A DNA stretch of 64,000 nt, from contig LNEB01000003.1 of assembly GCA_001464795.1 (NCBI GenBank), positions 124,001 through 188,000 on the forward strand, written 5' to 3'. The notes below the pieces were generated by a model. It searched no databases and was not told the origin of the DNA. It saw nothing but the letters and a program-made list of their open reading frames with translations. Position numbers and translations under genes: made by a program. Position 1 is the stretch's first letter. Each line of letters begins with the position of its first letter. Source of the DNA: Bdellovibrionales bacterium Ga0074139. Its GTDB lineage: Bacteria; Bdellovibrionota; Bdellovibrionia; Bdellovibrionales; Bdellovibrionaceae. Below are positions 35,286 to 64,000 of the stretch, piece by piece.

Positions 35286-36845
35286 TTAGTACGCGGTAAA
35301 GACATAAACCGCACCTGTTTGAGTGCTTGAGTTGTTAAACTGATCTCCGTTTATGGTCGTGGCATTAGAGGCTTCATTTCTGGCACCTACAGCTAAAGTA
35401 TTGCCTGAAAGACTCATCGACATTCCAAAATTATCATTGCTGTCTGGGTTTGAGGCTTTAATAAATGCTATTTGATTCCAAATTCCACCCGATCGCTTGT
35501 AAACATAAGCAGCACCAGAAGTGGCCAGTGAATTATCAAAGCTTGCGGTCATGCCGTTTAAGACGCCTATTTGATTCGAATCTTCTTCATAGGCACCAAC
35601 AGCAATGATGTCTCCACTGATGGCAAGGCTCCAGCCAAATAAATCCCCTGGCCCTGAGTTGGCTGCTTTGATGTAGGCCTCTTGAGCCCAACTGACGCCC
35701 GTTCTTTGATAAACATAAACCGCACCGGCATTGTTAGCTGAGTTATCTGCACTTGCAAAAAAGCCACTGGTAATGAAAGTCTGATTGGAATCTTCGTTGG
35801 GGGCTCCGACCACAACCGTATTTCCGCTAATACTTACTGAGTGACCAAAAGTATCACCTGAACTTAATACGGGAGGCTTTATATAAGCCTGCTGTACCCA
35901 AATAGTGCTTGTTCTGAAATAAACATAAACGGCACCAGTACTAAGTGCAGAGTTATCAAAACTAACAGCTGTTCCATTGGTGATTGTGGTTTGAGCAGAG
36001 CTTTCATTGGTAGAGCCGACAACAAGAGTATCACCTGATATTGCAATACTTTTTCCGAATTGATCAAAAGCTTCTGAGTTGGCCGCTTTGATGTAGGCCT
36101 CTTGATTCCAAATTCCACCGGACCTTTGGTAAACATAAACAGCACCTGCGCTGTTAGCTGAATTGTCTGCGCTTGCGGCAGTCCCGTTTGTTATATTTGT
36201 TTGGGCGGAGCTTTCGTTCGTTGAACTCACAACAATTGTTTCTCCGTCAATCACAACAGAGTTGCCAAAACTATCGTTGGCATCAGCGTTGGCCGCTTTG
36301 ATGTAAGCTTGCTGAGCCCAAGTGATGCCTGTTCTTTGATAAACATAAACCGCACCAGAACTTGAAGCTGAGTTGTCACTACTTGCAGTGGTTCCGTTGG
36401 TGATCGTGGTTTGATTGGAGTCCTCAAAAGGAGCACCCACAACAAGCGTATCTCCAGAAATAGCTACACTTTGCCCAAAGGAATCTAAAGAGGCCGCGTT
36501 GGAAGCTTTTATATAAGCCTCTTGCACCCAAATGCTTCCGGATCTTCTATAAACATAAACAGCCCCGGAAGTAGCAGCTGAATTGTTTGCACTTGCAGTG
36601 GGACCATTCGTGATGGTGGTAAGGTTGGAGTCTTCGCTGGGAACACCGACAACTAAAGTGTCATGACTGATGGATACAGCCTGACCGAATAAATCCCCAG
36701 CACCAGAATTCACAGCTTTAACGTAAGCTTGCTGAGAAATAAATAAACTGAGTTTTTTCCAAAAACCAAAAGGAACAAATTGCGAATAAGAATTCACTGA
36801 GAACAAAATTAAAAATAGAATTAAAAGGGAACGGCTGTGGCCCAA
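35286..36845 (-). CDS. FG-GAP seven-bladed beta-propeller protein
   Basis: 519 aa with signal peptide (about 1-21). Seven repeats follow, each with DxFG, GDTLVVG-like and AVYVY segments (seven of each counted), as in the FG-GAP beta-propeller of integrin alpha chains. Many loops keep EDSN-type sequences, but the third and fourth blades have TNESS instead, so some metal sites may be lost. The TTG start at 36845 lies within the last 25 bases of the upstream fibre gene; a GGAG ribosome site at the right distance supports it and there is no ATG near. Translational coupling with the fibre is likely. Exported; probably an adhesive or partner domain. Confidence 0.85.
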   Translation of the reverse strand: MGHSRSLLILFLILFSVNSYSQFVPFGFWKKLSLFISQQAYVKAVNSGAGDLFGQAVSISHDTLVVGVPSEDSNLTTITNGPTASANNSAATSGAVYVYRRSGSIWVQEAYIKASNAASLDSFGQSVAISGDTLVVGAPFEDSNQTTITNGTTASSDNSASSSGAVYVYQRTGITWAQQAYIKAANADANDSFGNSVVIDGETIVVSSTNESSAQTNITNGTAASADNSANSAGAVYVYQRSGGIWNQEAYIKAANSEAFDQFGKSIAISGDTLVVGSTNESSAQTTITNGTAVSFDNSALSTGAVYVYFRTSTIWVQQAYIKPPVLSSGDTFGHSVSISGNTVVVGAPNEDSNQTFITSGFFASADNSANNAGAVYVYQRTGVSWAQEAYIKAANSGPGDLFGWSLAISGDIIAVGAYEEDSNQIGVLNGMTASFDNSLATSGAAYVYKRSGGIWNQIAFIKASNPDSNDNFGMSMSLSGNTLAVGARNEASNATTINGDQFNNSSTQTGAVYVFTAY

Positions 36846-39280
36846 AGATCGACTCCATCAAAAATAAAAGTGTACACAAGACCGCCAGCCGGTTGGTTGG
36901 GCATGTATCCCTGAGGATACCTAACTGTGAATCCTGGGTAAGAAATAGATCCACAGGTGGTCGTAGCGTTCGGCATAGTGATTGTGTAACTACCACCAGG
37001 AGTTAAATTGACTAAATTCAGAGCCCCACAAGCTCCACTTGAAGTGACACGAATAAAATTAGTACTACCGAAATCAAGAAATAAATTTGATAACGAACCA
37101 CCACTGGCAGACACCCGAGAGGTTATTTTTCCATCAATCTCAATTCCTCTGAAAGTTGGACTCATGTTTCCAGTAATTAAGTTTCCGATGTTTAAATAAT
37201 TATTTGTCCCAATTGCAGGTTTTGTGACAGAGCTGTCGGTTCCAATCAAAATATTATTATCACCACTGGACATGTTGGATCCACCCACTTCAAAACCAAT
37301 CACCACGTTTGAATTACCAGTTGTAACATCATCACCAGCACCGTGCCCTAGAAAAGTATTGTTGGAACCCGTGGAGAGACTATTTCCAGCATCAGATCCC
37401 ACAGCAGTATTATAGGCTCCGGTGTTTACAAACTGTAAAGCACTGGATCCAACAGCTGTGTTGTTAAAGGATTGAGCATTTTCTAAAGCCTGTTGACCGA
37501 CGGTTGTATTAAACGCTCCCGTTAAGAATCGACCGGCTCGGTTTCCTATGGCTGTGTTATTATTTCCAGTGGTTAGGTCTGTCATGACCTCTGAACCGAC
37601 AGCCGTATTTTCAAAGCCAGTGGTTAAATTTGTTAATGAGCTTTTCCCTACGGCCACATTGCCATCACCAGAAGTGACCGATCTTAAAGATCTGAATCCC
37701 ACACCCACGTTGTTGATGGCAGTTACTCCCAGTGTTGTCGTCATGGATTCATAACCAATGGCCACATTGTTGTAAGCAGCTAGTGCAGGAACACTGTTTA
37801 AAGCGTTATTACCAATGGCAATGGAAGCTCCAGGTGTGAGATCATTGGCAGGGAATCTAACTTGAGAAACTCCGATTTCATCACTTCCGCAAGTTGCAAA
37901 ACCCGATACGTTGAATTTTAAAACTTGGCCGTTTGTACAGTTCAATGAAACTAAGGCATTGCCCATGTTATTAACGAGCATGACACCTTGATTTCCCAGT
38001 GCAGAGCCAAGAGTTGGAATTTGCCCAGGACCAGATCCCGTGTTCACGTTAAGAATGGCAGAACCTGTGGTGGCACCACCAGTCAAACCTGTGCCCGCGA
38101 GTACTTCTGTGATGTCGCCAGCTCCAACGGCAGGAGCTGCCCAGGATAAAACACCCGCACCATCGGTCGTTAGTATTTCACCTGCTGCACCATCATTGGG
38201 GGGAAGAGTGAGAATATAGTTTGCTACAATATCCGTCGGCGTTCTAATCGTCGCCGTGTTAATGTCATTATCCGTTAAGACTAAATTTCTTCCTGAAAAG
38301 TTTGTCGCAGCGATGGAATTCACATTGGTGATGTTTTGATTACTCATGTTGATGGCGCCAGATATTGTTCCACCCACAAGTGGTAGTTTAGTAGCATCAT
38401 TGACTGTGGTGTTCACAACACTCGTCACTCGACCTTTATTATCAGTCATTATCACTGGAATTTGTGTGGCGGATCCGTAAGTTCCCGGAGTTCCCACATC
38501 ACCTAATGATAAAACTCCAGCTGTTAATCTTAAACCACTGGTCGCTTCATCCGTTAATCCTTGCACCACACCTTTAGCTGCATAACTTGCATCAGTGATC
38601 GCCCCACCCGTCTCATCAGGCGAAGGTGTCCAACTTCCCGCCACAAATTTTAAAACCTGTCCTGTTGTAGGAGCTGTTGCCACCACATTAGTGCCACGAA
38701 TGCGAGAGACCACAGTCGCTGTTGAAGGCCCTGTAACATCTCCTAAAATAGCGTCTGAAGGTCGTAAATAGTTTGTGGCCGTTCCATTTACTAAACCTAG
38801 AAGTGTATCCACTTGCACGTTTGATAAAATGGCCTGCGACGGGTAGCTGGCAATTTTTAAAAATTCATGTTGATTTCGCTCATTGAGTAATCCGGCTATA
38901 TTTGAAAATCCTGCTCGTGCCGATTCGTTGATGGCCACATCAAAAGTTTCTGCAAGCCAATTGATTCGCATCAATCGGTTGGCATTAATAGATGGACAGT
39001 TCACGTTGACGTAATTAGGATTCATGACTTGAGAAAACAAGGGCTCTGCAAAACTTGGGTTAATATTAAACTCACCATTGATAATATCAGTGACAACACC
39101 AACACTGGAAATCAACGGGATGGGACAGCCTTGTTTCATAATACTGACGGTGAAGGTTTGAGCAGGGCTATCGACAGCGACTCCTGAATTTTCAATGTAG
39201 CCTTCATAACGAAGAATGGATTGCGACCACGCAGGACTAGATAAAAAAATTAGAAAAAAAAGCAATGTGGTCTTTGACAT
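36821..39280 (-). CDS. Mosaic trimeric fibre protein A (adhesin-like)
   Basis: 819 aa, signal peptide MSKTTLLFFLIFLSSPAWS. Following a unique N-terminal domain, residues about 130-400 are almost identical in sequence to parts of the other two fibres (NFSGRNLVL, TTDGAGVLSW, LTGGATTG). Then comes a run of YadA-head-like repeats (NTAVGxxAL, about 480-700), and a compact C-terminal tip (GGSYTITMPNATTTCGS). There is no C-terminal beta-barrel, so it is not a standard type Vc autotransporter; how it reaches the surface is unknown. I suggest kinship with the mosaic trimeric fibres known in Bdellovibrio bacteriovorus that bind prey. Promoter and coupling to the FG-GAP gene are listed apart. Confidence 0.78.
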   Translation of the reverse strand: MSKTTLLFFLIFLSSPAWSQSILRYEGYIENSGVAVDSPAQTFTVSIMKQGCPIPLISSVGVVTDIINGEFNINPSFAEPLFSQVMNPNYVNVNCPSINANRLMRINWLAETFDVAINESARAGFSNIAGLLNERNQHEFLKIASYPSQAILSNVQVDTLLGLVNGTATNYLRPSDAILGDVTGPSTATVVSRIRGTNVVATAPTTGQVLKFVAGSWTPSPDETGGAITDASYAAKGVVQGLTDEATSGLRLTAGVLSLGDVGTPGTYGSATQIPVIMTDNKGRVTSVVNTTVNDATKLPLVGGTISGAINMSNQNITNVNSIAATNFSGRNLVLTDNDINTATIRTPTDIVANYILTLPPNDGAAGEILTTDGAGVLSWAAPAVGAGDITEVLAGTGLTGGATTGSAILNVNTGSGPGQIPTLGSALGNQGVMLVNNMGNALVSLNCTNGQVLKFNVSGFATCGSDEIGVSQVRFPANDLTPGASIAIGNNALNSVPALAAYNNVAIGYESMTTTLGVTAINNVGVGFRSLRSVTSGDGNVAVGKSSLTNLTTGFENTAVGSEVMTDLTTGNNNTAIGNRAGRFLTGAFNTTVGQQALENAQSFNNTAVGSSALQFVNTGAYNTAVGSDAGNSLSTGSNNTFLGHGAGDDVTTGNSNVVIGFEVGGSNMSSGDNNILIGTDSSVTKPAIGTNNYLNIGNLITGNMSPTFRGIEIDGKITSRVSASGGSLSNLFLDFGSTNFIRVTSSGACGALNLVNLTPGGSYTITMPNATTTCGSISYPGFTVRYPQGYMPNQPAGGLVYTFIFDGVDLWATAVPF
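38100..38870 (-). repeat. Shared fibre block, copy in fibre A
   Basis: Direct repeat of blocks at about 50390-51360 and 61310-62310. All three run in the same reading direction and encode the LTGGATTG-to-EFLKIASYPSQ part of the fibres. Identity at the DNA level is high by eye (long runs of matching bases), lower at the edges. Boundaries are approximate. Confidence 0.7.
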
Positions 39281-39291
39281 GGACTAAGGAC

Positions 39292-39319
39292 TTATCGGCC
39301 TAAGTGTTGGAATTCTTAA
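39292..39319 (-). promoter_or_regulatory. FliA-like (sigma-28) promoter of fibre A
   Basis: Minus-strand -10 element GCCGATAA (complement of 39292-39299) with AAGA 16 bases before its CGAT core (part of TTAAGAATT). Only 11 bases separate the -10 element from the ATG at 39280, so the leader would be about 5 bases. Confidence 0.55.
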
Positions 39320-39356
39320 TCAACTCGAATTTGTGTTTCAAAGTGAGACAGTTTTA

Positions 39357-42300
39357 CTAAGGACTGAAAAGGACTGCGGCTGTTACTTCATCAAGGGCTG
39401 CAAAAACAGATTTTGTTCTTTCAGGGGTACCTATCGTTGTAAAAGCTCCGCCTGCATAAACCATCGAGCCTGAAACTGCGATTGCATTGACTGAATTGCT
39501 GGCACCAGGATTCCAGCCTGTGGCGGAACCCGTTGTCGCATCAAGGGCTGCGATTCGACTTCTTGATTGTCCACCGATGGTACCAAAAATACCACCGGCA
39601 TAAACCGTCGAGCCTGAAACTGCGATTGCATTGACCTGACCAGTTGCATTGGGATTCCATGATGTAGCGGATCCCGTTGTCACATCAAGGGCAGCGATTC
39701 GGTTTCTGGATTGCCCACCTATCGCTGTAAAAGTCCCGCCCGCATAAATATTAGCCCCTGAAACCACAATAGCAAGAATAGAGTTATTTGAATCAGGGTT
39801 CCATGTGGTTGCCAATCCCGTGGTACCATCTAAAGCGGCCAGCCGATTTCTTAATTGCCCACCGATGGTGGTAAAAGTTCCGCCTGCATAAACCGTCGAG
39901 CCTGAAACAGCAATCGCAGAAACCTCTGCGCTGGCATTGGGATTCCAGGCCGTGGCTAAGCCTGTGGTCACATCAAGGGCTGCGATTCGGTTTCGGGATT
40001 GTCCGCCAATGGTGGCAAAAGTTCCACCGGCATAAACTGTTGAGCCTGAAATTTCCAAAGCCTTAACTTCATTATTTGAATTGGGGTTCCAAGTGGTTGC
40101 AAGTCCTGAGGTTGCAGAAAGGGCGGCGATTCGGTTTCTTGATTGTCCACCGATGGTGGTAAAAGTTCCACCCACATAAACAGTTGTGCCTGAAACTTTT
40201 ATGACATTAACAAATCCATTTGCGGTGGGATTCCAGGAAGTGATGTTACCATTCGTATTATCTACGGCGGCAATTCCAATTCTGCTTTGACCACCGATGG
40301 AAGTAAGAAATCCTCCCACGTAAACATTGGATCCAGATACAGCAATCGCATTAAGTGCATTGTTCGCATCGGGGTTCCAGGCCGTTACTGTTCCTGTTGT
40401 TGTATCAATAGCAGCAGCTCTGCTTCTGGATTGCCCTCCGATGACGCTAAAAAGTCCAGCGGCATAAATTGTCGATCCAGATATTGCAAGTCCTCTGACT
40501 ACACTGTTGGCACCTGGGTTCCAAGTTGTTGCACTTCCTGTGGTAATACTAAGAGCAGCAATACTACTTCTAGATTGCCCACCGATGGTACTAAATGCGC
40601 CACCAGCGTAAACAGTTGTGCCTGAAATGAGTAAAGCACTGATATAATTACTTGCATTAGGATTCCAGGTTGTTGCAGCTCCAGTCGTATTGTTTAAAGC
40701 TGCAATAAAATTTCTAGATTGCCCACCGATAGTCATAAAAATACCACCGGCATAAACCGTCGAGCCTGAAACAGCAATCGCATAAACCTCTGCACTGGCA
40801 TTGGGATTCCACGATGTTGCAAGCCCTGTCGTGCTATTCAAGGCTGCAATTCGACTTCTGGTTTGCCCACCGATGATGCTAAAAAATCCACTGGCATAAA
40901 CCGTCGAGCCTGAAACAGCAATCGCAGAAACCTCTGCACTGGCATTGGGATTCCACGATGATGCAAGCCCCGTTGTGCTATTCAAGGCTGCAATTCGACT
41001 TCTGGTTTGCCCACCGATGGATGTAAACTCTCCGCCTGCATAAAGACTGGTGCCAGAGATCACTAAGGCTCGAACGATTCCATTCGCGTGTGGAGTCCAG
41101 CTGGTTACATTTCCAGTCGAATTATCTAAAGCAGCAAGCCTTGTTCTTAACTGGCCACCAATATTAATAAAATCTCCACCGGCATAAACATTTGTACCCG
41201 AAACAGCAAGGGCTCTAACAACTCCATCAGCGTTCGGATTCCATGCGGTTGCATCTCCTGTTGAAATTTCCAAGGCAGCGATTCGGTTTCGGGATTGTCC
41301 ACTAATTGTCGTAAAACTACCACCCACGTAAGCGTTGGATCCTGAAATAATAATGACGTTGACTAAACCATTAGGGTTGGGATTCCAGGTTGTGGCAGAA
41401 CCTGTGGTGCTATCTAGAGCTGCAATTCGAAGCCGAGGCTGTCCACCGATGTTTGTAAAACTACCACCCACATAAACAGTTGTGCCTGAAGCAATAAGTG
41501 TACTTACAGAGCCACCTGTCGCATTCGGATTCCAAGCCGTTGCACTCCCTGTCGTGCTATTAAGTGCTGCAATATTATTTCTTGGTTGCCCACCGATGGT
41601 GGTGAAGTCTCCTCCGATGTAAACAATTGTGGATTCAACTAAAATAGTGCGAACGAAGCCACCAGCGATGGGATTCCATGCCGTGGCTAAACCTGTTGTT
41701 GTGTCAAGGGCTGCAACATTGACTCTTGCTTGGCCACCAATGCTAGAAAAAGTTCCACCGGCATAAACATTTGAACCCGATACTGCTATAAAATTAACTG
41801 AGTTGTTCGAATCAGGGTTCCATGTCGTTGCAAGACCTGTCGTGAGACTTATTTCTGCCAGTCGGTTTCTAGATTGCCCTCCGATGTTTGTGAAATTTCC
41901 ACCCACATAAAGGTTAGATCCTGAAACAGCAAAAGAAAGCACAGAGCCACCTGTCGCATTCGGATTCCAAGTCGTCGCTAAGCCTGATGTTGTATCTAGG
42001 GCTGCTATATAACTTCTTGCTTGCCCACCAACAGTCGTAAAATTTCCACCCACATATAGGTTGGATCCAGAAATAAACATGGCATTGATAGCACCATTGG
42101 CATTGGGATTCCAAGTGGTCGCATTTCCTGTTGTGGCGTCTAGGGCTGCAATATTACTTCTTACTTGTCCGCCTATTAAAAAATAGGATCCACCAGCAAA
42201 AACAGTCGAGCCAGAAACTGCGATTGCATTAATTGATCCAATGACCCCTCCGCTAAAAGATGTGGGAACACCTGTAGTTGCATTTACGGCTGCAAGACTA

Positions 42301-43595
42301 TTTCTTACTTGTCCCCCGATGGCACTAAAGCTTCCACCCACATAAACTAAGGATCCCGATATAGTAAGAGCATTCACAACACCATCAGTGCCAGGGTTCC
42401 AAACAGCATCCACCGACTTGTCTGATAAAATTCGTGCTAAATTATTACGTGGCACTCCTCCAACACTGGTAAAACTTCCTCCAATGTACCAGCCACTGGC
42501 TCCATCAGAAATAATCACATTAACGGTTCCGTTCACTTTAGGAAAACTTACATCCGGAAGACCTGAAGTATTGTCTAAGGCCGCCATCCGTGAACCCCAA
42601 TAAATGGGATTTGTGGCAGTAAAACTTCCACCAATAAGAATATCACCCGTACTATTTTCATCGATGGCATTAATGGTTCCACTAGGATTTACAACCCAAG
42701 AAGTGACACTGCTTGTGGCAGTATCAATAGCTGCTAAATTAAATCGATCAAGTCCATTTGCTGTAGTAAAAGTTCCACCTACATATAGAATACCTGATGC
42801 AAGCTTAAGTGAGCTAACAGCTGCATCCATAGGAATATCAAAAGTGAGATCCAAAGTTCCATCAGCATTCAAATGCGCAAGTCTTTGTCTTGCAAATCCT
42901 TGCACAGTCGTAAAATTTCCTCCGACGTACCAACCACCCGAGCCGTCTGAAATAGCTGCGTTAATTATCCCATTAAAAGGAGAGTTCCCACCCTCCTGAA
43001 GTTGTGCAATTGGAAAGTTTGAGTTGGCTGTTGTTGTATCAAGAGGGGCACCGTAGGCATTGGCGTTAGTCAAAAAACTTCCACCGATGTAAAGCGTTCC
43101 TGAGTCCAAAGCTAAAGCACTTACGGAACCACTCGTGATCTTTCCATATTCTGGATCAAAGGCCATGTCTAAAGTGCCATCACTTAAAATTCTTGCGACT
43201 CTTTTTCTGACCACTGAACCGATAGTATTAAACTCTCCGCCAACATACCAACCTCCAGAGCCGTCTGAAATAACTGCATTCACAGTGCCTTTGATGTCTG
43301 CTGTGATGGGATCAAAAGTAGAAAGAACTTGACCATTAGCTGCTACAGGAACTCCAGACCCGGTACAAATTCCGACTTGGCTAAAAGCACCACCCAAAAC
43401 AACTCGGTTAACTGCAGGCACTGGTTCAATCGCACTGATGTAACTATTAAAACAAAGATTTCCAAAGCGGTTGATGGAATTTCCAAACATTGAGCTGGAT
43501 CCCCTATTGAAAGGTCCAGCACCCGGCATTTGTGCATGCAGTAAACAAACAGCAAAAAAAAGAAAAGAAATAAGGAAGTTACGCAAGACTGACAT
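39357..43595 (-). CDS. Exported multi-propeller protein, 28 repeats (delta-60/DUF5122-like)
   Basis: 1412 aa with signal peptide (about 1-22). Twenty-eight repeats, each with a strand pattern like VNAIAVSGS / VYAGGTF / GGQSRNRIAAL / WNPNA, can be counted (all glycine-glycine-x-Phe sites listed). From the second third on, each is exactly 48 aa (144 bases). Each repeat has four strands and looks like one propeller blade, so 28 is four seven-bladed propellers. The first repeat holds a Cys pair with the N-terminal LCFNSYISAI, a possible disulfide clasp. The ATG at 43595 is used; the previous TTG adds one residue. It is followed after 77 bases by fibre A in the same direction. Confidence 0.85.
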   Translation of the reverse strand: MSVLRNFLISFLFFAVCLLHAQMPGAGPFNRGSSSMFGNSINRFGNLCFNSYISAIEPVPAVNRVVLGGAFSQVGICTGSGVPVAANGQVLSTFDPITADIKGTVNAVISDGSGGWYVGGEFNTIGSVVRKRVARILSDGTLDMAFDPEYGKITSGSVSALALDSGTLYIGGSFLTNANAYGAPLDTTTANSNFPIAQLQEGGNSPFNGIINAAISDGSGGWYVGGNFTTVQGFARQRLAHLNADGTLDLTFDIPMDAAVSSLKLASGILYVGGTFTTANGLDRFNLAAIDTATSSVTSWVVNPSGTINAIDENSTGDILIGGSFTATNPIYWGSRMAALDNTSGLPDVSFPKVNGTVNVIISDGASGWYIGGSFTSVGGVPRNNLARILSDKSVDAVWNPGTDGVVNALTISGSLVYVGGSFSAIGGQVRNSLAAVNATTGVPTSFSGGVIGSINAIAVSGSTVFAGGSYFLIGGQVRSNIAALDATTGNATTWNPNANGAINAMFISGSNLYVGGNFTTVGGQARSYIAALDTTSGLATTWNPNATGGSVLSFAVSGSNLYVGGNFTNIGGQSRNRLAEISLTTGLATTWNPDSNNSVNFIAVSGSNVYAGGTFSSIGGQARVNVAALDTTTGLATAWNPIAGGFVRTILVESTIVYIGGDFTTIGGQPRNNIAALNSTTGSATAWNPNATGGSVSTLIASGTTVYVGGSFTNIGGQPRLRIAALDSTTGSATTWNPNPNGLVNVIIISGSNAYVGGSFTTISGQSRNRIAALEISTGDATAWNPNADGVVRALAVSGTNVYAGGDFINIGGQLRTRLAALDNSTGNVTSWTPHANGIVRALVISGTSLYAGGEFTSIGGQTRSRIAALNSTTGLASSWNPNASAEVSAIAVSGSTVYASGFFSIIGGQTRSRIAALNSTTGLATSWNPNASAEVYAIAVSGSTVYAGGIFMTIGGQSRNFIAALNNTTGAATTWNPNASNYISALLISGTTVYAGGAFSTIGGQSRSSIAALSITTGSATTWNPGANSVVRGLAISGSTIYAAGLFSVIGGQSRSRAAAIDTTTGTVTAWNPDANNALNAIAVSGSNVYVGGFLTSIGGQSRIGIAAVDNTNGNITSWNPTANGFVNVIKVSGTTVYVGGTFTTIGGQSRNRIAALSATSGLATTWNPNSNNEVKALEISGSTVYAGGTFATIGGQSRNRIAALDVTTGLATAWNPNASAEVSAIAVSGSTVYAGGTFTTIGGQLRNRLAALDGTTGLATTWNPDSNNSILAIVVSGANIYAGGTFTAIGGQSRNRIAALDVTTGSATSWNPNATGQVNAIAVSGSTVYAGGIFGTIGGQSRSRIAALDATTGSATGWNPGASNSVNAIAVSGSMVYAGGAFTTIGTPERTKSVFAALDEVTAAVLFSP
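39420..42400 (-). repeat. Strict 144-bp tandem coding repeats inside the propeller gene
   Basis: A core like CCACCGATGG recurs at 39571, 39715, 39859, 40003, 40147, 40291, 40435, 40579, 40723, 40867, 41011 and 41155, always 144 bases apart, i.e. exactly one 48-codon blade. Regular spacing looks array-like but is coding. Confidence 0.85.
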
Positions 43596-43602
43596 CAATC
43601 AT

Positions 43603-43630
43603 TTATCGGCTAAAATATCAGTTTTCTAAA
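43603..43630 (-). promoter_or_regulatory. FliA-like promoter of the 28-repeat propeller gene
   Basis: Minus-strand -10 element GCCGATAA (complement of 43603-43610) with TAGA 16 bases before its CGAT core (43625-43628 on the complement). Seven bases separate the -10 element from the ATG at 43595, so the RNA would begin at or next to the start codon. Confidence 0.6.
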
Positions 43631-43706
43631 CTTTTAATCTCAATATGAGTCAGGATAAAATTGACCCCACACCAACATATTGCAAGAATTAACTCAGAGG
43701 TTCTAT

Positions 43707-44405
43707 ATGCTAGAGAAAAAAAGTTTTGCAGCAGGTTTACTACTAGGCGCTTTCCTCATCTGGGCTCTCTTTGTCAGAGAACCTTTTTTAACTTCTTTGG
43801 AGGATAAAGGAAGTTATGCCTACGGCCAACAGCTCGGTAAAAATTTAAAAAAAGGGTTTGTCGAGTATAATTCCAGAATCGTAAGAATGGGAATGGATCA
43901 TGCCGCTCGTGATCATTCAAAATTAGATGAAAAAGAAAAACGTGAAGGCATCCAGCACTTGCAAGAAAAGTCCATGCCCAAACGAAAGGAAATGCTGGCT
44001 CTGCAGCCTCCTTCGGCACCTGATGCAAGTCTTGATAATGATGGATTTCAAAACACGCCTTTTCAATTTTCATTTATCAAATCAAGTTGGGCTGACTATG
44101 AAAAAAACCGTGGGCAAAGATTGCCGCCTGAACCCCTACCTGATTTTAATTTACAAAGTTCTAATCCCAAACAGGTTTTTAAATTTGCATTAGTGGTTTT
44201 TGATTCTAGCGGAGCTATTTTGGGTGAAAAAAATTACAACTTAAAATCAGCTGATTTGCCCGAAGCTTTAAAAATTGTTTTGAAAAATTTAAAAGCTAAA
44301 GAAACGTGGCTTTTGAAAATGAAGCCGCCTTTTAATGATAGCAGTCGATTTGATTGGCCTGTTAGAATGGAAGAAAATAAGATTATTCAGATCACTCTTC
44401 GTTAA
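43707..44405 (+). CDS. Degenerate Mip/FkpA-like FKBP protein, possible fibre chaperone
   Basis: 232 aa with a single N-terminal membrane anchor (about 8-25), start ATG 43707 with a CAGAGG ribosome site. The segment GSYAYGQQLGKNLKKGF, followed by a helix and LDEKEKREGIQ, matches the N-terminal dimerisation domain of FkpA/Mip FKBPs. The C-terminal part (LPEALKIVLKNLKAKETWLLKM, ending NKIIQITL) has the shape of an FKBP fold but lacks the Tyr-Gly and other active-site residues, so catalysis is doubtful. It is convergent with the largest fibre gene, sharing 4 bases at the stops, between the two fibre/propeller operons. A folding helper for the fibres is a reasonable inference. Confidence 0.55.
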   Translation: MLEKKSFAAGLLLGAFLIWALFVREPFLTSLEDKGSYAYGQQLGKNLKKGFVEYNSRIVRMGMDHAARDHSKLDEKEKREGIQHLQEKSMPKRKEMLALQPPSAPDASLDNDGFQNTPFQFSFIKSSWADYEKNRGQRLPPEPLPDFNLQSSNPKQVFKFALVVFDSSGAILGEKNYNLKSADLPEALKIVLKNLKAKETWLLKMKPPFNDSSRFDWPVRMEENKIIQITLR

Positions 44406-51874: not shown

Positions 51875-51882
51875 TAGATAAC

Positions 51883-51908
51883 TTATCGGTTGGTCTTCAT
51901 TTTCTCTA
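51883..51908 (-). promoter_or_regulatory. FliA-like promoter of fibre B
   Basis: Minus-strand -10 element ACCGATAA (complement of 51883-51890) with TAGA 16 bases before its CGAT core (51905-51908). Eight bases separate it from the GTG at 51874. Confidence 0.6.
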
Positions 51909-52014
51909 AAATGTCTAAACACTTGATTGTTGGTCTGGTTGTTTTGTTTTGAGTCGTGGTTTGTAAACAAAATTAACAAAAAAATGAAATATTATGTTTC
52001 ACTACGGATAGCCT

Positions 52015-52043: not shown

Positions 52044-52051
52044 TTCGAGGT

Positions 52052-53218: not shown

Positions 53219-53224
53219 AAATGA

Positions 53225-53650: not shown

Positions 53651-53654
53651 AATT

Positions 53655-55811: not shown

Positions 55812-58800
55812 AAATTTTGCTTCCCATTTTTGTAAAGTGATAAACGGTTTCAGTGCCGCTGACAGTTAAACCATTGGCTGGACTAAACAAAAAAGTGTCT
55901 GAACTGTGGGTAAAAGTACAAGTTCCTTGCGTCGTACCTTGTACTGCTAAAGTGTAACTTCCACCATCACGCATATTTTGTAAAGTCATGGCTCCGCAAC
56001 TTGCAGACGTGTATTGCATATTTCCATTGTCAAAATTAAATGTGGTTGATGCTGCATTATCAACTACAGGGGAAACAATTTGTCCACCCACCTCAAGATT
56101 ATTTGTCATCGACACTTGTCCAGCGGCATCGATCGTCATTCTTGGCGTGTTAGAAGTTTCAAAATTAAATGCAAAAGCATCATTAGTTCCGATGGTGACA
56201 GCACTACCCGTAGCGTTTCCGTTATTTAAAATATCACCTGAACCGCCACCACCACCAACAAGATCAACATAAGCTGCACCATTTTCAGAGATACGGAATT
56301 TATTCGATGTAGAATCAAAATAAATTCTTCCTTGGCCTGCTGGTGAGACGCCAGGTGATGCAATTCCACGTTGCGAGAATGCACCGTTCACGTCCAGAAC
56401 AGTATTTGGATTAGTTATTCCAATACCGACATTACCAATCGAGTCAACTCTCATTCGCTCTATTGCATCTGTTGCGAAAAGAATAGGATCCGCACCGTGA
56501 TTGACGATGACCATTCCGTCTGAAGCAGGAGCCGTGTAAATGAAACCACGATTTTGATAGATTCCCGAAAGTCCTGTAGCGCCGGCTCCTCCATGTCCGT
56601 AAGCCGCAATTCTATCCCCACCGATGTCAGCTACAAATAGCGATTCTGCTGCAGTGCCAGGATTAGTGTTTAAAACTCTCATTATAACATCGTCATCTTT
56701 TGCATGACTCATAACAAACTCATCGCCTGGATTTGTCGTCCCGATACCGACATTGCCATTAGGTAAAATTGTCATTCTAGGTGTATTATTTGTTTCAAAA
56801 TTCAGTGCAAAATTATCATTCGTTCCCAAAGTCGCAGCACCAGCAAAAGAATTTCCGTTATTTAAAATATCACCTGAACCACCCGCGCCTACAAGATCAA
56901 CGTAAGCTCCGCCATTTTCGGAAACTCTGAATTTGTTGGATGTGGAATCAAAATAAATTCTTCCTTGATCAGCCGGTGACACAGCAGGAGCTGCCATTTC
57001 ACGCTGGGTGAAAGCTCCGTTTAAATCAAAAGCTGTTGATGGCGATGTTGTACCGATACCAATATTTCCATTTGATAAATTTCCGTAAATTGCATTTCCA
57101 ATATTGAGTTGATTAGAACCTGTAGCCGCGACGACATCAATGTCATAACCAATGATTATATTATTACTACCCGTTGTTAAATTATCACCAGCTCCATAAC
57201 CAACACCAATATTATTACTTCCAGTGGCAAGATTCAGTGCTCTTGCACCGAGTGCCGTGTTGTTGTTTCCGTCAGCATTGTTAGCTAAACTATCAGAGCC
57301 AAGTGCTGCATTGTTTTGTCCAGTGGTATTTGCAATAGAGGCATTACTTCCAATCGCAGTATTAAAACTTGCATTAGTTGCTGTTAAAAGTGCGTTATTT
57401 CCTAGTGCCGTGTTAGCTGTTCCAGTTACTAAAAGTCGAAGAGCGGTATTACCAACAGCTGTATTCGCATCACCAGAAGCTAAAGTTCGAAGACTTGCTT
57501 GTCCAACGGCCGTGTTACCGATGCCGGTCGTATTTAAATTCAATGCGTTGACTCCGACAGCTGTGTTGCTAGCACCAGTTGTGTTAGCATCTAAGGCATC
57601 AGAGCCAATCGCTGTGTTCGCTGATCCAGTGGTGTTATTTAATAGTGCATCTCGACCGACAGCTGTGTTGAAACTACCCGTCGAGTTTGTCATCAGAGTT
57701 TGATTACCAACGGCCACGTTGCTTGCACCTGACGTTATATTCATCATTGAGCTATGTCCGATGGCTGTATTTCGAACACCCACGTTTGATGCAGCAGTTG
57801 TGCTACCTCTGAGTGCATAAGCACCTAAAGCAGTGCTTTGAGTCTGTTGAAAAGATGCGGTGCTGTCTGCGTAGCGCATGGCTTGAAAACCGACGGCTGT
57901 GGATTCACTTCTACCCACATTAGAATTCAAAGACATGTAACCAATAGCCGTATTACCAACACCATTAACATTTGTTTGAAATGACAAGGGACCGATGGCT
58001 AAATTTTGCACTCCCGTTGAGCTTGAACCCACTCCGCTGCCTAGGAAGAAATTAAAACTTGTTGTGTAATCTGCAACTCCATCACTTAAACCATCAATCG
58101 ATGATGATCCTGATGATGTACAAACCGCAAAACCTGAGGCATCAAAACCTAAAACTTGACCAACACCGCAAGTGAATGAAGAAGCAACACCAGAGCCGTT
58201 AGCAACAATGGCTTGATTAGCATTAAAACCACTCATCGAAGTTAAAATATCAGAATAAGCTGCACCATTTTCAGAGATACGAAATTTATTAGATGTGGAA
58301 TCAAAATAAATTCTGCCTTGGCCTACAGGTGAAACAGCAGGTGCTGCGATTCCACGTTGCGAGAATGCGCCGTTAATATCCAAAATAGTTCCTGGAGCTG
58401 TTGTTCCAATTCCCAAATTTCCATCAGCTGTTAATGTCATTCTTGGAGTACCGTTGGTGCTTGGATTTCCATAAACTAAGGCCGTCTGACTTTTAAAAGT
58501 CAGATCACCCATTTGATAACCAATAAAGGATCCATCAACTGAATTGTCAGTACTCAATGATAACATAGAATCACTGGAATTAATGGCCATCCAAGGTGAA
58601 CTGGCTCCAGAGGTAAAACTTTGCACATTAAAAGTGGCTTGCGAATCGTAGCCTGCAGCATCGACTCCCACACCTGCACGACCTGCCACAGTTAATAAAG
58701 TATTGGGAGAAGCTGTTCCAATTCCCACATTGCCGTTATTTAAAATTGTCATTCGTGAACTGTTATTAGTTTCTAAATTAAGTGCAAAGTTATCGTTGGT

Positions 58801-61800
58801 ACCAATGGTCACAGCACTACCCGTGGTATTTCCGTTATTTAAAATATCACCCGAACCACCACCTGAGCTTACAAGATCAACGTAAGCTCCACCGTTTTCA
58901 GAAACTCTAAATTTATTAGATGTAGAATCAAAATAAATCCGTCCTTGGTCAGTGGCTGACACAGCAGGGGCTGAAGCTATTCCACGCTGATCAATGGCTG
59001 ATGCAATGGACACTGGCGCTGTGGCATCTGTAGTATAAATAGAAAATTTATTCGTTCCTTCGATAGTTCCTGTATAAAGACCGTAGGCATTATTAATTAC
59101 ACCAGCACCTGGTTTTAATATTTCAGCCGCAACTCCGAAGGCATTATTCACAGTGCCCGCACCGGTGTGATTGATTCGATTAAATGAATTTCTGACAACA
59201 TCAACTGTCGCAGAACCTGAACCAATGGTCATATCATTCCAACTGGTTGTCACAACATTATTATTAGCAATTAAATCTAACGTTAAGCCATTTCTTGAAC
59301 CTGTAACTAAGGCAGTAGAATTAGACGGATTATTCATAAACGTTGAAGTGTTTGATGTAATCGCCTCGCCAGAGTTTGCATCAAATGGATTTGTATAAAC
59401 CTCAAATTTGTGGTTTGGATTACCAGTTCCAATTCCCACATTACCGTTAGCACTGATTCGCATTCGTTCGCTATTGTTCGTAGAAAATCCAATCGTGTTC
59501 GTAGCTGGAGCAAACATTCCCGTGCCCACACTGGAATTAGCTCCTAATCCATAAGAAGGATCCGTAGCTGATCCAGGGTAAACTCGCTGTGATCTGTAAT
59601 AATCAAAAACACCATTATTAAATTGAGCGGCATCAGAGCCACCGATGGTCATCATTAAGACATCATCAGCACCGCTGTAAAAACCCGTATTAGGATCATT
59701 AGTAAATGAATATGACGGTGCAAGGTCAGATCCATCATCAGCTAAATAAGTACCACCACTTCCACCACCCGCCCCCACAAGGTCCACGTAAGCTCCGCCG
59801 TTTTCAGAGACTCTAAATTTATTAGATGTGGAATCAAAATATATTCTTCCTTGATCAGCGGGTGATACTGCAGGAGCTGCAATTTCACGCATGGTAACGG
59901 CACCGTTAATATCCAAAGTAGTTGAAGGATTTGTCATTCCACCAAGACCCACTCGGCGATTGGTGAGATCTCCAAAAATGGTGGGATCTCCAGAGGCATT
60001 ATGAATGTATAACCTGTTAGACTCAGTTGCTGGAAATGTCACGGGTCCCGCAGAATGACCTAAGTAAATATTGGAATCTCCAGTTTGAAGACTTTCACCA
60101 GCACTTACTCCCAAGGCAGTATTATTTCCACCCTCAGCTCTGTACAAAGACAACCTTCCAATTGCAGTGTTTCCTGAGGATGACTGAAGAAAAGTGAGAG
60201 TTGCACTTCCAAGCGCCGTATTTCCTGTGCCATTGGTTACATTCACAAGACTACCACTTCCAATAGCTGTATTTGCATTACCAGTTGTTAAGCTTAAAAG
60301 TGCTTCCGGCCCAACTGCGGTATTTGTGCCACCAGTTGTTACAGACTGCAGTGCTTGATTACCAACCGCCGTGTTATCTACGCCAGTTGTAAGAGACTGC
60401 ATAACTTGACTTCCGACACCAGTATTTCGAATTGCTGCACTGCCGTTTCCTGCACCTTGACCTAAGTATAAACTATTATTTGTATAATTTGCAGCTGCAT
60501 CACTTAATGCATCAATTGTTGAGGCACCGCCCGCGCCTACAAGATCCACGTAAGCGCCGCCGTTTTCTGAGACTCTGAATTTGTTCGATGTAGAATCAAA
60601 ATAAATTCTTCCTTGGTCCGTGGGTGATACGGCAGGAGTTGCCATTTCACGAACATTCACTGCACCGTTCACATCTAAAGTGGTCGATGGATTTGTCATT
60701 CCACCAAGACCCACGCGGCGGTTAGTAAGATCTCCAAAAATTGTAGGATTACCAGCTGCATTATGAATATAAAGTTGATTAGAGATAACTCCCGGAGCTG
60801 ATGGGCCCGATAGATAGCCTAAAAATATATTTCCATCACTCAATCCTGTTGCATTATCTCCGCTAGCTGTACCGATGGCTGTGTTGTTTCCACCATTTCC
60901 TAAACTAGAAAGTGATGCACGCCCCAAAGCCACGTTAGCAGATCCACTGACTGAGTTCACAAGTGAGAGTTCACCCACGGCTACGTTATCACCACCGTCA
61001 ATATTTTGATACATGCTTGCATTTCCAACAGCTGTGTTTCGACTTCCTGTTGTAGACCTATTCAATGCTTCTCGACCAAAAGCTGCGTTATTGCCTCCGG
61101 TGGTCAGGCTTTGTAAACTAAGAGCACCGAAACCAGCATTATTTGCACCAGTTGTAACAGCTTGCAGTGACAAAGCACCAACGCTTGTATTTTGAGTGCC
61201 TGTCGTTGTTGTAGCCCCCACACCAGAGCCTAAATACATATTATAAGTTGTTGCATAATCGGTCGCCGCATCAGTTAAACCATCTATTGTTGTAGCACCC
61301 GCTCCGCCATCATCCGTCCCGCAACCCGCAATTCCTGCTCCATCAAATTTAATAATCTGATTCAGTCCGCAGTTCAGTGATGTCAATGCAGTGCCTGTGG
61401 CATTCGCAACGATCACATCTCCAGCACCAAGAGCTGTGCTATTTTGAGGAATTTGATTGATACCAGTGCCTACGTTTACATTTAATGTCGCAACTCCACT
61501 GGTCGCACCACCCGTAAGACCTGTGCCTGCTACAACTTCTGTGATGTCTCCGCCCGCTCCAGCAGCCGACCACGAAAGAACTCCCGCACCATCTGTTGTA
61601 AGCACTTCACCTGCATCACCATCATTAATTGGTAAAGTCAGGGCATAGTTTGCAACAATATCTGTCGGAGTTCTGATAGTAACCGTGTTCGTGTCGTTAT
61701 CATTCAAAACTAAATTTCTTCCAGAAAAATTGGTAGCAGCCACAGAATTAATGTTCGTGATGTTTTGATTTCCCATATTAATGGGACCCGTCATTGTGCC

Positions 61801-62820
61801 ACCAGCCAAAGGAAGTTTTGATGAATCATTCACCGCCGTGTTCACAACACCAGTCACTCGACCTTTCGCATCTGTTGTGATCACAGGAATTTGTGAGCTA
61901 GAGCCGTAAGTTCCAGCGGCCCCCACATCGCCTAAAGATAAAACTCCAGCTGCTAATCTTAGACCACTGGTCGCTTCATCGGTTAAACCTTGGACAACAC
62001 CTTTAGCCGCATACGAGGCATCACCAACAGCAGAACCCACGGCATCCGCTGAAGGCACCCAGTTTGTTCCATCAAATTTTAAAACTTGGCCAGTGGTAGG
62101 AGCTGTTGCAACGACATTTGTGCCACGGATTCGTGAAACGACTGTCGCGTTCGAAGGACCTGTGACATCACCTGCAAAGTTGTCTGATGGTCGTAAATAA
62201 TTCGTCGCCGTACCATTGACCAATCCAAGCAGCGTGTCCACTTGGGTGTTGGATAAAACAGTTTGTGAAGGGTAACTTGCAATTTTTAAAAACTCATCGG
62301 TATTGCGGTTACCTAATTTTTCGGCTTGATAAGCCAGTGGCACATAATTCACTTTCATCGAAGGCACATCTTCCCAAACTCCAGAATTAGCGACTTCACT
62401 AAAAGACATTTCCACAATTCGGCCATGCTGAGAAAGTGCATTGTAACTTGAGCCACTGGCGCAAGATAGGCCTGTGTAATTCACGCCGTTCGCAAAAACT
62501 TCTGCTAACTGAAAAGGTAAAGTTGTTACAGAGTTAGTAATCGAAGTTTGTGTTCGAACTGTAGGAACTGCCAATGATTGATCACCCACAGTCAATGTAA
62601 ACACTCCATTATCAGCGGGTGCCATGGGACGAATTTGAGTTTCTTCCCATAGTAAACAATTTTCTACTCCAGGAGATTTAATACGGATTCGAAACTGAGC
62701 GGTCGGTGCCACCAAAGGATTATCAGTGGAATCCACGATCTTTCCATGCAAAGTAATGCCAGAACTAGCATAAGTCCATTCGGACATAAAAAGGAGGTTA
62801 ATAACTAAAAATATTTTCAC
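55783..62820 (-). CDS. Mosaic trimeric fibre protein C (adhesin-like)
   Basis: 2345 aa from a GTG at 62820. An in-frame stop two codons upstream and the signal peptide fix this start; only a few bases separate it from the promoter. The N-terminal domain (GITLHGKIVDSTDNPLV onward) is close to that of fibre B. Then the common block, then a long shaft with six QGRIYFDSTSNKF cassettes and many NTAVGxxAL-type repeats. The C-terminal tip (GGSYTLAVQGTTQG, LFSPANGLTV) is a third version of the domain ending fibres A and B. The stop overlaps the start of the 14-repeat propeller by 29 bases. Adhesion in a trimeric fibre is the most likely role. Confidence 0.82.
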   Translation of the reverse strand: MKIFLVINLLFMSEWTYASSGITLHGKIVDSTDNPLVAPTAQFRIRIKSPGVENCLLWEETQIRPMAPADNGVFTLTVGDQSLAVPTVRTQTSITNSVTTLPFQLAEVFANGVNYTGLSCASGSSYNALSQHGRIVEMSFSEVANSGVWEDVPSMKVNYVPLAYQAEKLGNRNTDEFLKIASYPSQTVLSNTQVDTLLGLVNGTATNYLRPSDNFAGDVTGPSNATVVSRIRGTNVVATAPTTGQVLKFDGTNWVPSADAVGSAVGDASYAAKGVVQGLTDEATSGLRLAAGVLSLGDVGAAGTYGSSSQIPVITTDAKGRVTGVVNTAVNDSSKLPLAGGTMTGPINMGNQNITNINSVAATNFSGRNLVLNDNDTNTVTIRTPTDIVANYALTLPINDGDAGEVLTTDGAGVLSWSAAGAGGDITEVVAGTGLTGGATSGVATLNVNVGTGINQIPQNSTALGAGDVIVANATGTALTSLNCGLNQIIKFDGAGIAGCGTDDGGAGATTIDGLTDAATDYATTYNMYLGSGVGATTTTGTQNTSVGALSLQAVTTGANNAGFGALSLQSLTTGGNNAAFGREALNRSTTGSRNTAVGNASMYQNIDGGDNVAVGELSLVNSVSGSANVALGRASLSSLGNGGNNTAIGTASGDNATGLSDGNIFLGYLSGPSAPGVISNQLYIHNAAGNPTIFGDLTNRRVGLGGMTNPSTTLDVNGAVNVREMATPAVSPTDQGRIYFDSTSNKFRVSENGGAYVDLVGAGGASTIDALSDAAANYTNNSLYLGQGAGNGSAAIRNTGVGSQVMQSLTTGVDNTAVGNQALQSVTTGGTNTAVGPEALLSLTTGNANTAIGSGSLVNVTNGTGNTALGSATLTFLQSSSGNTAIGRLSLYRAEGGNNTALGVSAGESLQTGDSNIYLGHSAGPVTFPATESNRLYIHNASGDPTIFGDLTNRRVGLGGMTNPSTTLDINGAVTMREIAAPAVSPADQGRIYFDSTSNKFRVSENGGAYVDLVGAGGGSGGTYLADDGSDLAPSYSFTNDPNTGFYSGADDVLMMTIGGSDAAQFNNGVFDYYRSQRVYPGSATDPSYGLGANSSVGTGMFAPATNTIGFSTNNSERMRISANGNVGIGTGNPNHKFEVYTNPFDANSGEAITSNTSTFMNNPSNSTALVTGSRNGLTLDLIANNNVVTTSWNDMTIGSGSATVDVVRNSFNRINHTGAGTVNNAFGVAAEILKPGAGVINNAYGLYTGTIEGTNKFSIYTTDATAPVSIASAIDQRGIASAPAVSATDQGRIYFDSTSNKFRVSENGGAYVDLVSSGGGSGDILNNGNTTGSAVTIGTNDNFALNLETNNSSRMTILNNGNVGIGTASPNTLLTVAGRAGVGVDAAGYDSQATFNVQSFTSGASSPWMAINSSDSMLSLSTDNSVDGSFIGYQMGDLTFKSQTALVYGNPSTNGTPRMTLTADGNLGIGTTAPGTILDINGAFSQRGIAAPAVSPVGQGRIYFDSTSNKFRISENGAAYSDILTSMSGFNANQAIVANGSGVASSFTCGVGQVLGFDASGFAVCTSSGSSSIDGLSDGVADYTTSFNFFLGSGVGSSSTGVQNLAIGPLSFQTNVNGVGNTAIGYMSLNSNVGRSESTAVGFQAMRYADSTASFQQTQSTALGAYALRGSTTAASNVGVRNTAIGHSSMMNITSGASNVAVGNQTLMTNSTGSFNTAVGRDALLNNTTGSANTAIGSDALDANTTGASNTAVGVNALNLNTTGIGNTAVGQASLRTLASGDANTAVGNTALRLLVTGTANTALGNNALLTATNASFNTAIGSNASIANTTGQNNAALGSDSLANNADGNNNTALGARALNLATGSNNIGVGYGAGDNLTTGSNNIIIGYDIDVVAATGSNQLNIGNAIYGNLSNGNIGIGTTSPSTAFDLNGAFTQREMAAPAVSPADQGRIYFDSTSNKFRVSENGGAYVDLVGAGGSGDILNNGNSFAGAATLGTNDNFALNFETNNTPRMTILPNGNVGIGTTNPGDEFVMSHAKDDDVIMRVLNTNPGTAAESLFVADIGGDRIAAYGHGGAGATGLSGIYQNRGFIYTAPASDGMVIVNHGADPILFATDAIERMRVDSIGNVGIGITNPNTVLDVNGAFSQRGIASPGVSPAGQGRIYFDSTSNKFRISENGAAYVDLVGGGGGSGDILNNGNATGSAVTIGTNDAFAFNFETSNTPRMTIDAAGQVSMTNNLEVGGQIVSPVVDNAASTTFNFDNGNMQYTSASCGAMTLQNMRDGGSYTLAVQGTTQGTCTFTHSSDTFLFSPANGLTVSGTETVYHFTKMGSKIYVTWVAGFQ
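56258..60625 (-). repeat. Six recurring cassette copies in fibre C
   Basis: Copies coding for QGRIYFDSTSNKFR.SENG.AY lie at about 56258-56345, 56891-56985, 58250-58330, 58871-58950, 59771-59860 and 60537-60625. The domain between copies differs. Positions approximate. Confidence 0.7.
61310..62310 (-). repeat. Shared fibre block, copy in fibre C
   Basis: Third copy of the block found at 38100-38870 and 50390-51360. The part 61310-61500 is shared with fibre B only, the rest with both A and B. Confidence 0.7.
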
Positions 62821-62828
62821 TCTTTAAT

Positions 62829-62854
62829 TTATCGGTATGAGTTCGATTGGACTA
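62829..62854 (-). promoter_or_regulatory. FliA-like promoter of fibre C
   Basis: Minus-strand -10 element ACCGATAA (complement of 62829-62836) with TAGT 16 bases before its CGAT core (62851-62854). Eight bases separate it from the GTG at 62820. The region 62821-62929 holds nothing else I can see. Confidence 0.6.
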
Positions 62855-62929
62855 AAACAGCTAAGTGTTTAATGACTGGTCCAGTTGTTTCAATTTGAAA
62901 CAACTTATGGAAAAAAGATGCACAAAATC

Positions 62930-64000
62930 TTAAAAAGAATTCAGCAGGACTTCAGCCGTATTAATATCAAGCGCCCCGAAGCGAGACTTGGTCTTTGTGG
63001 TAACTCCCATCGTGCTAAACGAACCTCCGACGTAAATTCTTGAACCAGATACTTGCAAATGAACGACGACACCATTCACATTGGGGTTCCAAGCTGACAC
63101 AAGACCTGAGGTCACTTCTAAACTTGCAAGTGAATTTCTTAGCAAGCTTCCCGCTCGACTAAAAAAACCGCCGACATAAATATTTGCACCCACTAATTCC
63201 ATGGAGTTCACACCACCATTGAGTTGAGGATCCCATGGCAACGCAGTGGCAGAACTTGAATCAAGAGCTGCTAAATACAATCTAAAACTTCCACCAATAG
63301 TTGAAAAATTTCCACCCACATAAATAGTAGCTCCAGAAACCACGATGGATTTAACTGAACTATCTGCGCTAGGATTCCAAGCTGTTGCTAAACCTGTTGT
63401 TTTATCAAGAGCAACAATTCGGTTTCTTGACTCTCCACCAATTTGAGTGAAACTTCCCCCCGCATAGACTAAGGGTCCTTCAACAACTATAGTACTGACT
63501 CCAAAATCGGCATTAGGATCCCAGCTTGTTAAAAGTCCAGTAGTTAAATCGACAGCTGCTATATTATTTCTTACTTGTCCACTGATCGTGGTGAAGTCAC
63601 CGCCGATATAAAGAGTAGATCCATCAATAGTCAGATCGTTAACAAAATACCCAGGATTGGGATTCCAAACTTGCACAGCAGAGGTTTTAGCATCAATTGC
63701 AGCTAAATAGTTTCTTGATTGCCCACCGATGCTAGTAAAGCCTCCACCGATATACAAAAGATTGTTATAGCGAATCATTTTATTAATAGACGCATTCGCA
63801 CCAGGGTTCCAAGTTGTTGCTAAACCAGTCAAAGTATCAATAGCAGCCAGACGGTTTCGAAATTGTCCACCAATAAAAGTAAATGTACCACCCACATATA
63901 TATTAGATCCTGAAACAGCTACGGTGTTGACACCAGAGTTGGTTTCAGGATTCCACGAACTAGCAAGACCCGAGATTACATCCACAGCCGCAGCCCCACT
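62930..64000 (-). CDS. Multi-propeller protein, 3' end, truncated by the right edge
   Basis: The frame is open to the right edge, so the true start is outside; the GTG at 63985 is not taken as a start. Seven repeats of the VYxGGxF kind can be counted in 357 aa, plus the start of a further one. The C-terminal TKSRFGALDINTAEVLL closely resembles the end of the 28-repeat protein (TKSVFAALDEVTAAVLF), so the two are relatives. It precedes fibre C by 109 bases on the same strand, as the 28-repeat gene precedes fibre A. If the seven rule holds, the whole protein should have 14, 21 or 28 repeats. Confidence 0.82.
   Translation of the reverse strand, partial: SGAAAVDVISGLASSWNPETNSGVNTVAVSGSNIYVGGTFTFIGGQFRNRLAAIDTLTGLATTWNPGANASINKMIRYNNLLYIGGGFTSIGGQSRNYLAAIDAKTSAVQVWNPNPGYFVNDLTIDGSTLYIGGDFTTISGQVRNNIAAVDLTTGLLTSWDPNADFGVSTIVVEGPLVYAGGSFTQIGGESRNRIVALDKTTGLATAWNPSADSSVKSIVVSGATIYVGGNFSTIGGSFRLYLAALDSSSATALPWDPQLNGGVNSMELVGANIYVGGFFSRAGSLLRNSLASLEVTSGLVSAWNPNVNGVVVHLQVSGSRIYVGGSFSTMGVTTKTKSRFGALDINTAEVLLNSF

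Follow-up and report, generated by a model that had tools for sequence, protein, structure and literature searches.

A fibre tip domain paired with exported partner proteins across the phylum suggests that Bdellovibrio-like predators equip their fibres with interchangeable plug-in recognition heads

The window, that is the whole 64-kb stretch of DNA analysed here (C3:124001-188000), is part of a 2.9-Mb genome and contains genes for long surface fibres together with genes for exported beta-propeller proteins. With reading frames and Pfam searches we located all genes that an initial annotation of the sequence had placed there, and our repeat numbers for two of the propellers, ~28 and ~14, agreed with it. 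The fibre and propeller genes had been described as alternating. The genes are present, but their order is really that of four fibre-then-partner pairs, one of which is cut by the window edge. The features are:

35286..36845, minus strand: FG-GAP propeller, 519 aa, exported, with seven FG-GAP_2 matches; partner (putative head) of fibre A
36821..39280, minus strand: fibre A, 819 aa, MAT-type with a divergent N-terminal domain
36830..37162 (C3:160830-161162), minus strand: tip domain of fibre A, a divergent member, located by profile searches
39293..39319, minus strand: FliA-type promoter site of fibre A, TTAAG-N16-CCGATA, with CCGATAA at 39292-39298
39357..43598, minus strand: 28-blade DUF5122 propeller, 1413 aa, exported; partner of fibre B
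43604..43630, minus strand: FliA-type promoter site of the 28-blade propeller, with CCGATAA at 43603-43609
43680..44405, plus strand: FKBP-like gene, in which only the FKBP_N domain reaches the Pfam cut-off
44402..51979, minus strand: fibre B, 2525 aa as listed; the true start is likely GTG 51874
44405..44737 (C3:168405-168737), minus strand: tip domain of fibre B, located by profile search
51884..51910, minus strand: FliA-type promoter site of fibre B, with CCGATAA at 51883-51889
52052..53218, plus strand: ATPase, AAA_14/DUF4143 (Pfam)
53225..53650, minus strand: small membrane protein, 141 aa, without a Pfam match
53655..55811, minus strand: 14-blade DUF5122 propeller, 718 aa; partner of fibre C
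55783..62820, minus strand: fibre C, 2345 aa
55786..56118, minus strand: tip domain of fibre C, modelled with pLDDT 93
62830..62856, minus strand: FliA-type promoter site of fibre C, with CCGATAA at 62829-62835
62930..64000, minus strand: DUF5122 propeller, C-terminal part, full length 1410 aa; partner of fibre D

Within the pairs the order was constant, with the fibre first and the partner behind it: fibre D is followed by the 1410-aa propeller, fibre C by the 718-aa propeller and then the small membrane protein, fibre B by the 1413-aa propeller beyond the antisense FKBP-like gene, and fibre A by the FG-GAP propeller. Fibre D (1430 aa) lies just outside the window, upstream of its propeller, which it abuts without a spacer. 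Two fibre genes were said to overlap the next propeller gene, and they do so by 25 bp (fibre A/FG-GAP propeller) and 29 bp (fibre C/14-blade propeller). The small membrane protein is indeed the last gene of the fibre C operon, 4 bp behind the 14-blade propeller. The FKBP-like gene parts fibre B from the 28-blade propeller, and each of these two has a promoter-like site of its own; the FKBP_N protein is a possible folding helper, and its place in the fibre system is uncertain. In the 28-blade propeller the repeat motif recurs every ~48 residues, and in the 14-blade propeller 12 clear blade motifs and two double-length gaps were counted. FG-GAP_2 matches occur in only this one gene (35286..36845) of the genome.

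The fibres had been related by eye to the mosaic adhesive trimer (MAT) fibres of Bdellovibrio. This relation was upheld by a profile of the N-terminal domain built from the genome's own fibres (A2), which found 17 loci in genome G040 and 14 in G007; in the own fibres this conserved beta-rich domain is present directly after the signal peptide. Judged by their frame lengths, the G040 loci would fit Bd1334, Bd2133, Bd2734, Bd2740 and Bd2872. The fibres are mosaic, the N-terminal regions of B, C and D being 71-78% identical and the shafts shuffled; fibre A is 49-58% identical to the other fibres. As regards a beta-helical trimeric shaft, fibre C matched in sequence 8ojn, the structure of a "cell wall surface anchor" fragment (E=1.5e-6), and matches to phage tailspike and virion-protein profiles were also obtained. 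A YadA-type trimeric autotransporter was considered and rejected, as the C-terminus is formed by the tip domain and Pfam gave no C-terminal anchor family. Like the MAT fibres described by Caulton et al. 2024 (PMC10769870), the present ones consist of a signal peptide and conserved N-terminal domain, a long mosaic shaft and exchangeable C-terminal tips. They differ in that their tip lies by sequence outside the solved MAT tip families and in that another exported protein is coupled to them; propellers, operons and adjacent genes are not mentioned in the main text of that paper. Some MAT fibres end in the chaperone domain S74 (PMC10769870), for which Pfam gave no match in the fibres of the window.

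Six fibres of the genome, A-D and two on contig C14, end exactly in one tip domain of ~110 residues. The divergent tip of fibre A was recovered at E=1.7e-33 with the own-genome profile, which includes it, and at 4.8e-7 with a wider profile (A3). The seventh fibre (C3:241-243 kb) has another C-terminus, is situated among housekeeping genes and has no partner. The own-genome tip profile matched in 61 of 141 genomes of the order and the wider profile in 76 of 369 genomes of the phylum, and in nearly every case the domain formed the exact C-terminus of a fibre. When genome contigs were scanned with a single tip protein, the only match was one MAG, "Bdellovibrionia bacterium 2_bin.16", and a tblastn search of phage records for the tip gave no match. 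For the shared C-terminal tip a structure prediction had been proposed; AlphaFold2 produced a confident all-beta model of the fibre C tip (pLDDT 93), to which Foldseek assigned the fold of phage fibre C-termini, with 205 viral models at E<=0.001 and the Pa223 capsid spike as best solved structure (E=4e-4). The match to the assembly fragment of TSP4 (TSP4-N) of phage CBA120 was weak (E=0.31, TM 0.45). By its predicted fold the tip belongs with phage fibre proteins. Assignment to a solved MAT tip family was rejected, since no sequence match was found and no MAT tip appeared in the Foldseek list. The seventh fibre (L042:8175-11864) was seen to contain two N-terminal MAT-type domains of different types, at the start and in the middle, and upstream of it lies the gene of a small lipoprotein, which has a FliA-type site.

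Conserved adjacency in related genomes had been named as a check on the pairing. We analysed 80 tip-bearing regions from the order; 40 regions around MAT-type fibres without the tip, taken from single-contig genomes, served as controls. A partner was defined as an exported protein of at least 150 aa on the same strand whose start is no more than 60 bp from the stop of the fibre gene. To predict signal peptides and their cleavage sites we used simple hydrophobicity and the AxA rule, and the pairing and motif counts were obtained with custom scripts. Of 85 tip-bearing fibres, 50 had such a tight exported partner; for fibres with other tips the figure was 3 of 40 (p=1.8e-8, with genomes as non-independent samples); one of the three control neighbours resembles MurA by eye. 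In families outside the order 14 of 20 tips had a partner, as counted from the listing (p=1e-6 against the same controls), so that the adjacency was upheld in the order and beyond it. In the own genome a partner is present near all six tip-bearing fibres and the fibre with the other tip has none. We concluded that the pairing follows the tip, not the fibre or the propeller, and that the fibre-partner gene module is well supported. The other 35 of the 85 tip-bearing fibres had no tight exported neighbour; some had one further downstream or convergent, many had none, and the partners of such fibres may be encoded elsewhere or not exist. The Bdellovibrio literature yielded nothing on DUF5122, on beta-propeller plus fibre or on NHL repeat, and searches of it on RCC1 and on MAT/docking returned nothing on fibre-partner pairing.

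The bodies of the partners are unrelated. Among 53 scanned, 10 were RCC1, 8 LamG, 7 DUF5122, 5 NHL, 5 SBBP and 3 Kelch proteins, and FG-GAP bodies also occur. Of the joint functions that had been suggested for fibre and propeller, that of a fibre-tip cap is supported, but the propeller as its essential element was rejected because the bodies are so diverse. A general pairing of DUF5122 proteins with fibres was likewise ruled out, as two DUF5122 proteins of the same genome stand alone (L029:12091-16254 and L030:7589-10348, both predicted lipoproteins). Compared by sequence, the conserved parts of the module are the C-terminal tip domain of the fibre and the short mature N-terminus of the partner. 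The partner bodies do belong to the DUF5122, RCC1, NHL, Kelch and FG-GAP repeat families, but neither a fibre partner nor a docking peptide is part of the definition of any of these families. Soil Bdellovibrio have RCC1-repeat proteins whose annotation was that of RTX toxins (PMC5941755), and some of these may be fibre heads of the kind proposed below.

Some partners are Tat substrates. Two Tat-type RCC1 proteins with the N-terminal motif (L055, L110) are separated from their fibre by two genes. A TPR-like gene was observed between the fibre and the Tat-exported partner at L055, L105, L110 and L068, and at L055 and L110 a small gene that looks methyltransferase-like by eye lies there as well; the products of these intervening genes might modify the fibre or the partner. 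The two C14 fibres are followed by a large exported repeat protein, in one case directly and in the other after a DsbA-like gene. Large exported proteins with repeats around WTGAGGNANWN (L040:11515-17706, L040:3615-5570 and L041:721-4380) hold the partner position at the C14 fibres, and the two that were scanned gave no Pfam match. The DsbA-like thioredoxin-fold genes adjoining the C14 fibres (L040:10504-11481 and L041:4367-5344) have a CxxC in one case and not in the other.

In many partners the predicted signal peptide is immediately followed by a short common stretch of the type xxxxxGFWK, typically ...GxF[WF][KRQ]. Examples are QFVPFGFWKK in the FG-GAP protein of the window, QMFNMGAFWKRK in L080 and FRSTVAFWKG in L114, and outside the order QRVNIGFWKPA in L183. 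In the window the mature N-termini are encoded at about 36750-36782 (FG-GAP propeller), 43500-43532 (28-blade propeller, QMPGAGPFNRG) and 55701-55730 (14-blade propeller, RTSSSNWGSV, a weak fit to the motif). An unsupervised 9-residue motif reached a log-likelihood of 282, compared with 194-227 for shuffled windows and 168-194 for other exported sets of equal size, and with left-one-out scores partners were distinguished from controls with an AUC of 0.83. An aromatic pair was present in the first 16 mature residues of 23 of 47 partners, whereas among the other exported proteins 21 of 212 had one (p=8e-9), a conservative test because a few true, distant partners are still contained in the control set; outside the order 9 of 15 partners had the pair (p=1e-5). 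Furthermore, tip similarity correlated with peptide similarity (r=0.16, p=5e-4), and the correlation persisted among pairs whose bodies are unrelated (p=0.006). The two fibre-less DUF5122 proteins are without the motif. Some partners also lack it, namely L121, L125, L128 and several of the LamG proteins. The first three of these were seen to form a second class, with the N-terminus D..WTG.T..PGDYT in place of the aromatic motif, and they follow tips ending in ...VYV.W.SG[YF]. The 14-blade propeller was modelled with pLDDT 75 and was propeller-like by Foldseek; residues 1-43 were not folded in the model, as would be expected of a plug-in tail, and its N-terminus is outside the folded part.

The attack-phase promoter of B. 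bacteriovorus, TTAAG-N16-CCGATA, has been ascribed to FliA (PMC3627812). Four TTWAG-N16-CCGATA sites were detected in the 64-kb window against 0.01 expected, W having been chosen after the sites were seen; a search with the strict consensus and at most one mismatch returned the same four sites and no other in the window. At these sites only 4-11 bp separate the end of CCGATAA from the listed start codon, so that the mRNAs would have no leader or almost none. Related sites are present upstream of fibres D, E and F and of the operon of the seventh fibre. Among the control fibres, 7 of 41 also had such sites when up to one mismatch was allowed, compared with about 0.3% in shuffled sequence, and we therefore regard them as a property of these fibres in general. 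The sites predict joint production of fibres and partners during the attack phase. Different expression times of fibre and propeller, which had been named as evidence against a joint function, appear less likely, given the four FliA-type promoters.

We consider it probable, though by a modest measure, that fibre and partner form a two-component fibre in which the partner, exported on its own, is caught by the tip through its N-terminal peptide and serves as the head. The MAT-type fibre would be a trimer with its conserved N-terminal domain at the predator surface, and its long mosaic beta-shaft would carry the phage-type C-terminal tip domain, acting as a socket and not itself as the prey-binding end. 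The second protein, usually the product of the next gene, would be exported separately by Sec or Tat, and after removal of the signal peptide its first ~10 residues would plug into the tip. The remainder, be it a multi-bladed propeller, a LamG lectin or another fold, would then be the distal head that contacts prey, and a swap of the second gene would give new specificity while the fibre is not rebuilt. In the window, the heads of fibres A and C would come from their own operons, and the two large DUF5122 propellers would be the heads of fibres B and D.

We favour this plug-in model because the pairing tracks the tip (50/85 vs 3/40, and 14/20 outside the order), because unrelated bodies share the mature N-terminal motif, because similar tips tend to go with similar peptides even where the bodies are unrelated (p=0.006), and because the two DUF5122 proteins that stand alone in this genome do not have the motif. 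The tip fold, that of phage fibre C-termini with a weak TSP4-N match, also argues for it, as does the attachment of T2 gp38 to gp37 by its N-terminus (PMC12892980). The model is weakened by the 35 of 85 tip-bearing fibres without a tight exported neighbour, by the small size of the tip-peptide correlation (r=0.16) and the weak TSP4 match (E=0.31), by the partners without the motif and by the weak fit of the 14-blade propeller (RTSSSNWGS). A trimeric tip and a probably monomeric partner would moreover imply a symmetry mismatch, which counts against it. In the Bd2133 crystal a MAT tip pocket binding an N-terminal peptide, one per trimer, was seen by chance (PMC10769870); the Bd2133 tip is of a different family by sequence, and its peptide pocket is thus only an analogy.

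The motif sits directly behind the signal peptide, a usual place for sorting signals. It could accordingly be a general sorting or secretion signal, used for example in outer membrane crossing, with fibre and partner as independent co-expressed adhesins; the similar aromatic pair in 21 of 212 other exported proteins and the many tip-bearing fibres without an adjoining partner would be in line with this. We nevertheless judge this improbable, as it is the tip domain, and not the mere presence of a fibre, on which pairing depends, tip neighbours are strongly enriched in the motif, peptide and tip types co-vary, and the fibre-less propellers do not carry it.

The plug-in model has parallels in phages. 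In the gp37/gp38 system of the T2/S16 type the tip of a trimeric fibre bears a receptor-binding protein with a gene of its own, as proposed here, and head swaps of the T2 type work only if the N-terminal part of gp38 matches (PMC12892980). The likeness concerns the mode of action: the heads described here come from many fold families and have Sec or Tat signals, and no gp38-type family was found among the partners by Pfam, among the 25 commonest families listed. In branched tailspikes (TSP1-4 of CBA120, XD domains of T4 gp10; PMC8825819) a beta-domain of a trimer likewise recruits receptor-binding proteins, the XD domains of TSP4 recruiting partner spikes (PMC8825819). The partners recruited there are trimers, however, and bind through domains and not through a short peptide.

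T4 gp38, on the other hand, is a trimerisation chaperone of the fibre (PMC12892980), and a partner that assists fibre assembly in this way and is released afterwards would not be a permanent head. DsbA-like and FKBP-like folding-helper genes are found nearby, and the present fibres are without the chaperone domain S74 in which other MAT fibres end (PMC10769870). From an assembly factor one conserved family would be expected; the partners are instead large, unrelated and mostly of recognition-type folds, and many tip-bearing fibres need no adjoining partner, which makes such a role unlikely, and still less credible than a sorting signal. The adjacency of fibre and propeller could also reflect chance or a general clustering of surface-protein genes; in favour of this, the genes are repetitive and probably mobile, and many tip-bearing fibres have no such neighbour. 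We consider it very improbable in view of the overlapping or abutting frames, the fixed order from fibre to partner, the large excess over control fibres, the N-terminal motif common to the partners and the recurrence of the pairing in several of the phylum's families.

As to how Bdellovibrio-like predators recognise prey of many kinds, a first molecular answer came with the MAT fibres, although the deletion of a single MAT gene rarely has an effect (PMC10769870). The phylum-wide pairing of tip and partner suggests that the fibres of these predators are fitted with recognition heads that can be interchanged. If the plug-in model is true, exchangeable heads from neighbouring genes would add a second layer and greatly widen the recognition repertoire, many large propeller proteins that are "hypothetical" or misannotated would gain a function, and a short peptide tag might allow chosen proteins to be displayed on such fibres. 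For the wider idea of a universal adapter, in which the phage-like tip would throughout the phylum accept any exported protein with an N-terminal plug of ~10 residues and the prey-recognition heads, among them propellers, lectins and some Tat-exported proteins, would be freely exchangeable, we see the chances as evenly balanced.

Two variations of the gene module were observed besides. In L088 two tandem tip domains (G014:C19:345292-345603 and 346546-346845) are part of one fibre frame of 1869 aa. In L183 and L192 two successive partner genes lie behind one fibre, and both partners have an N-terminus of the GFWK/GFWR type.
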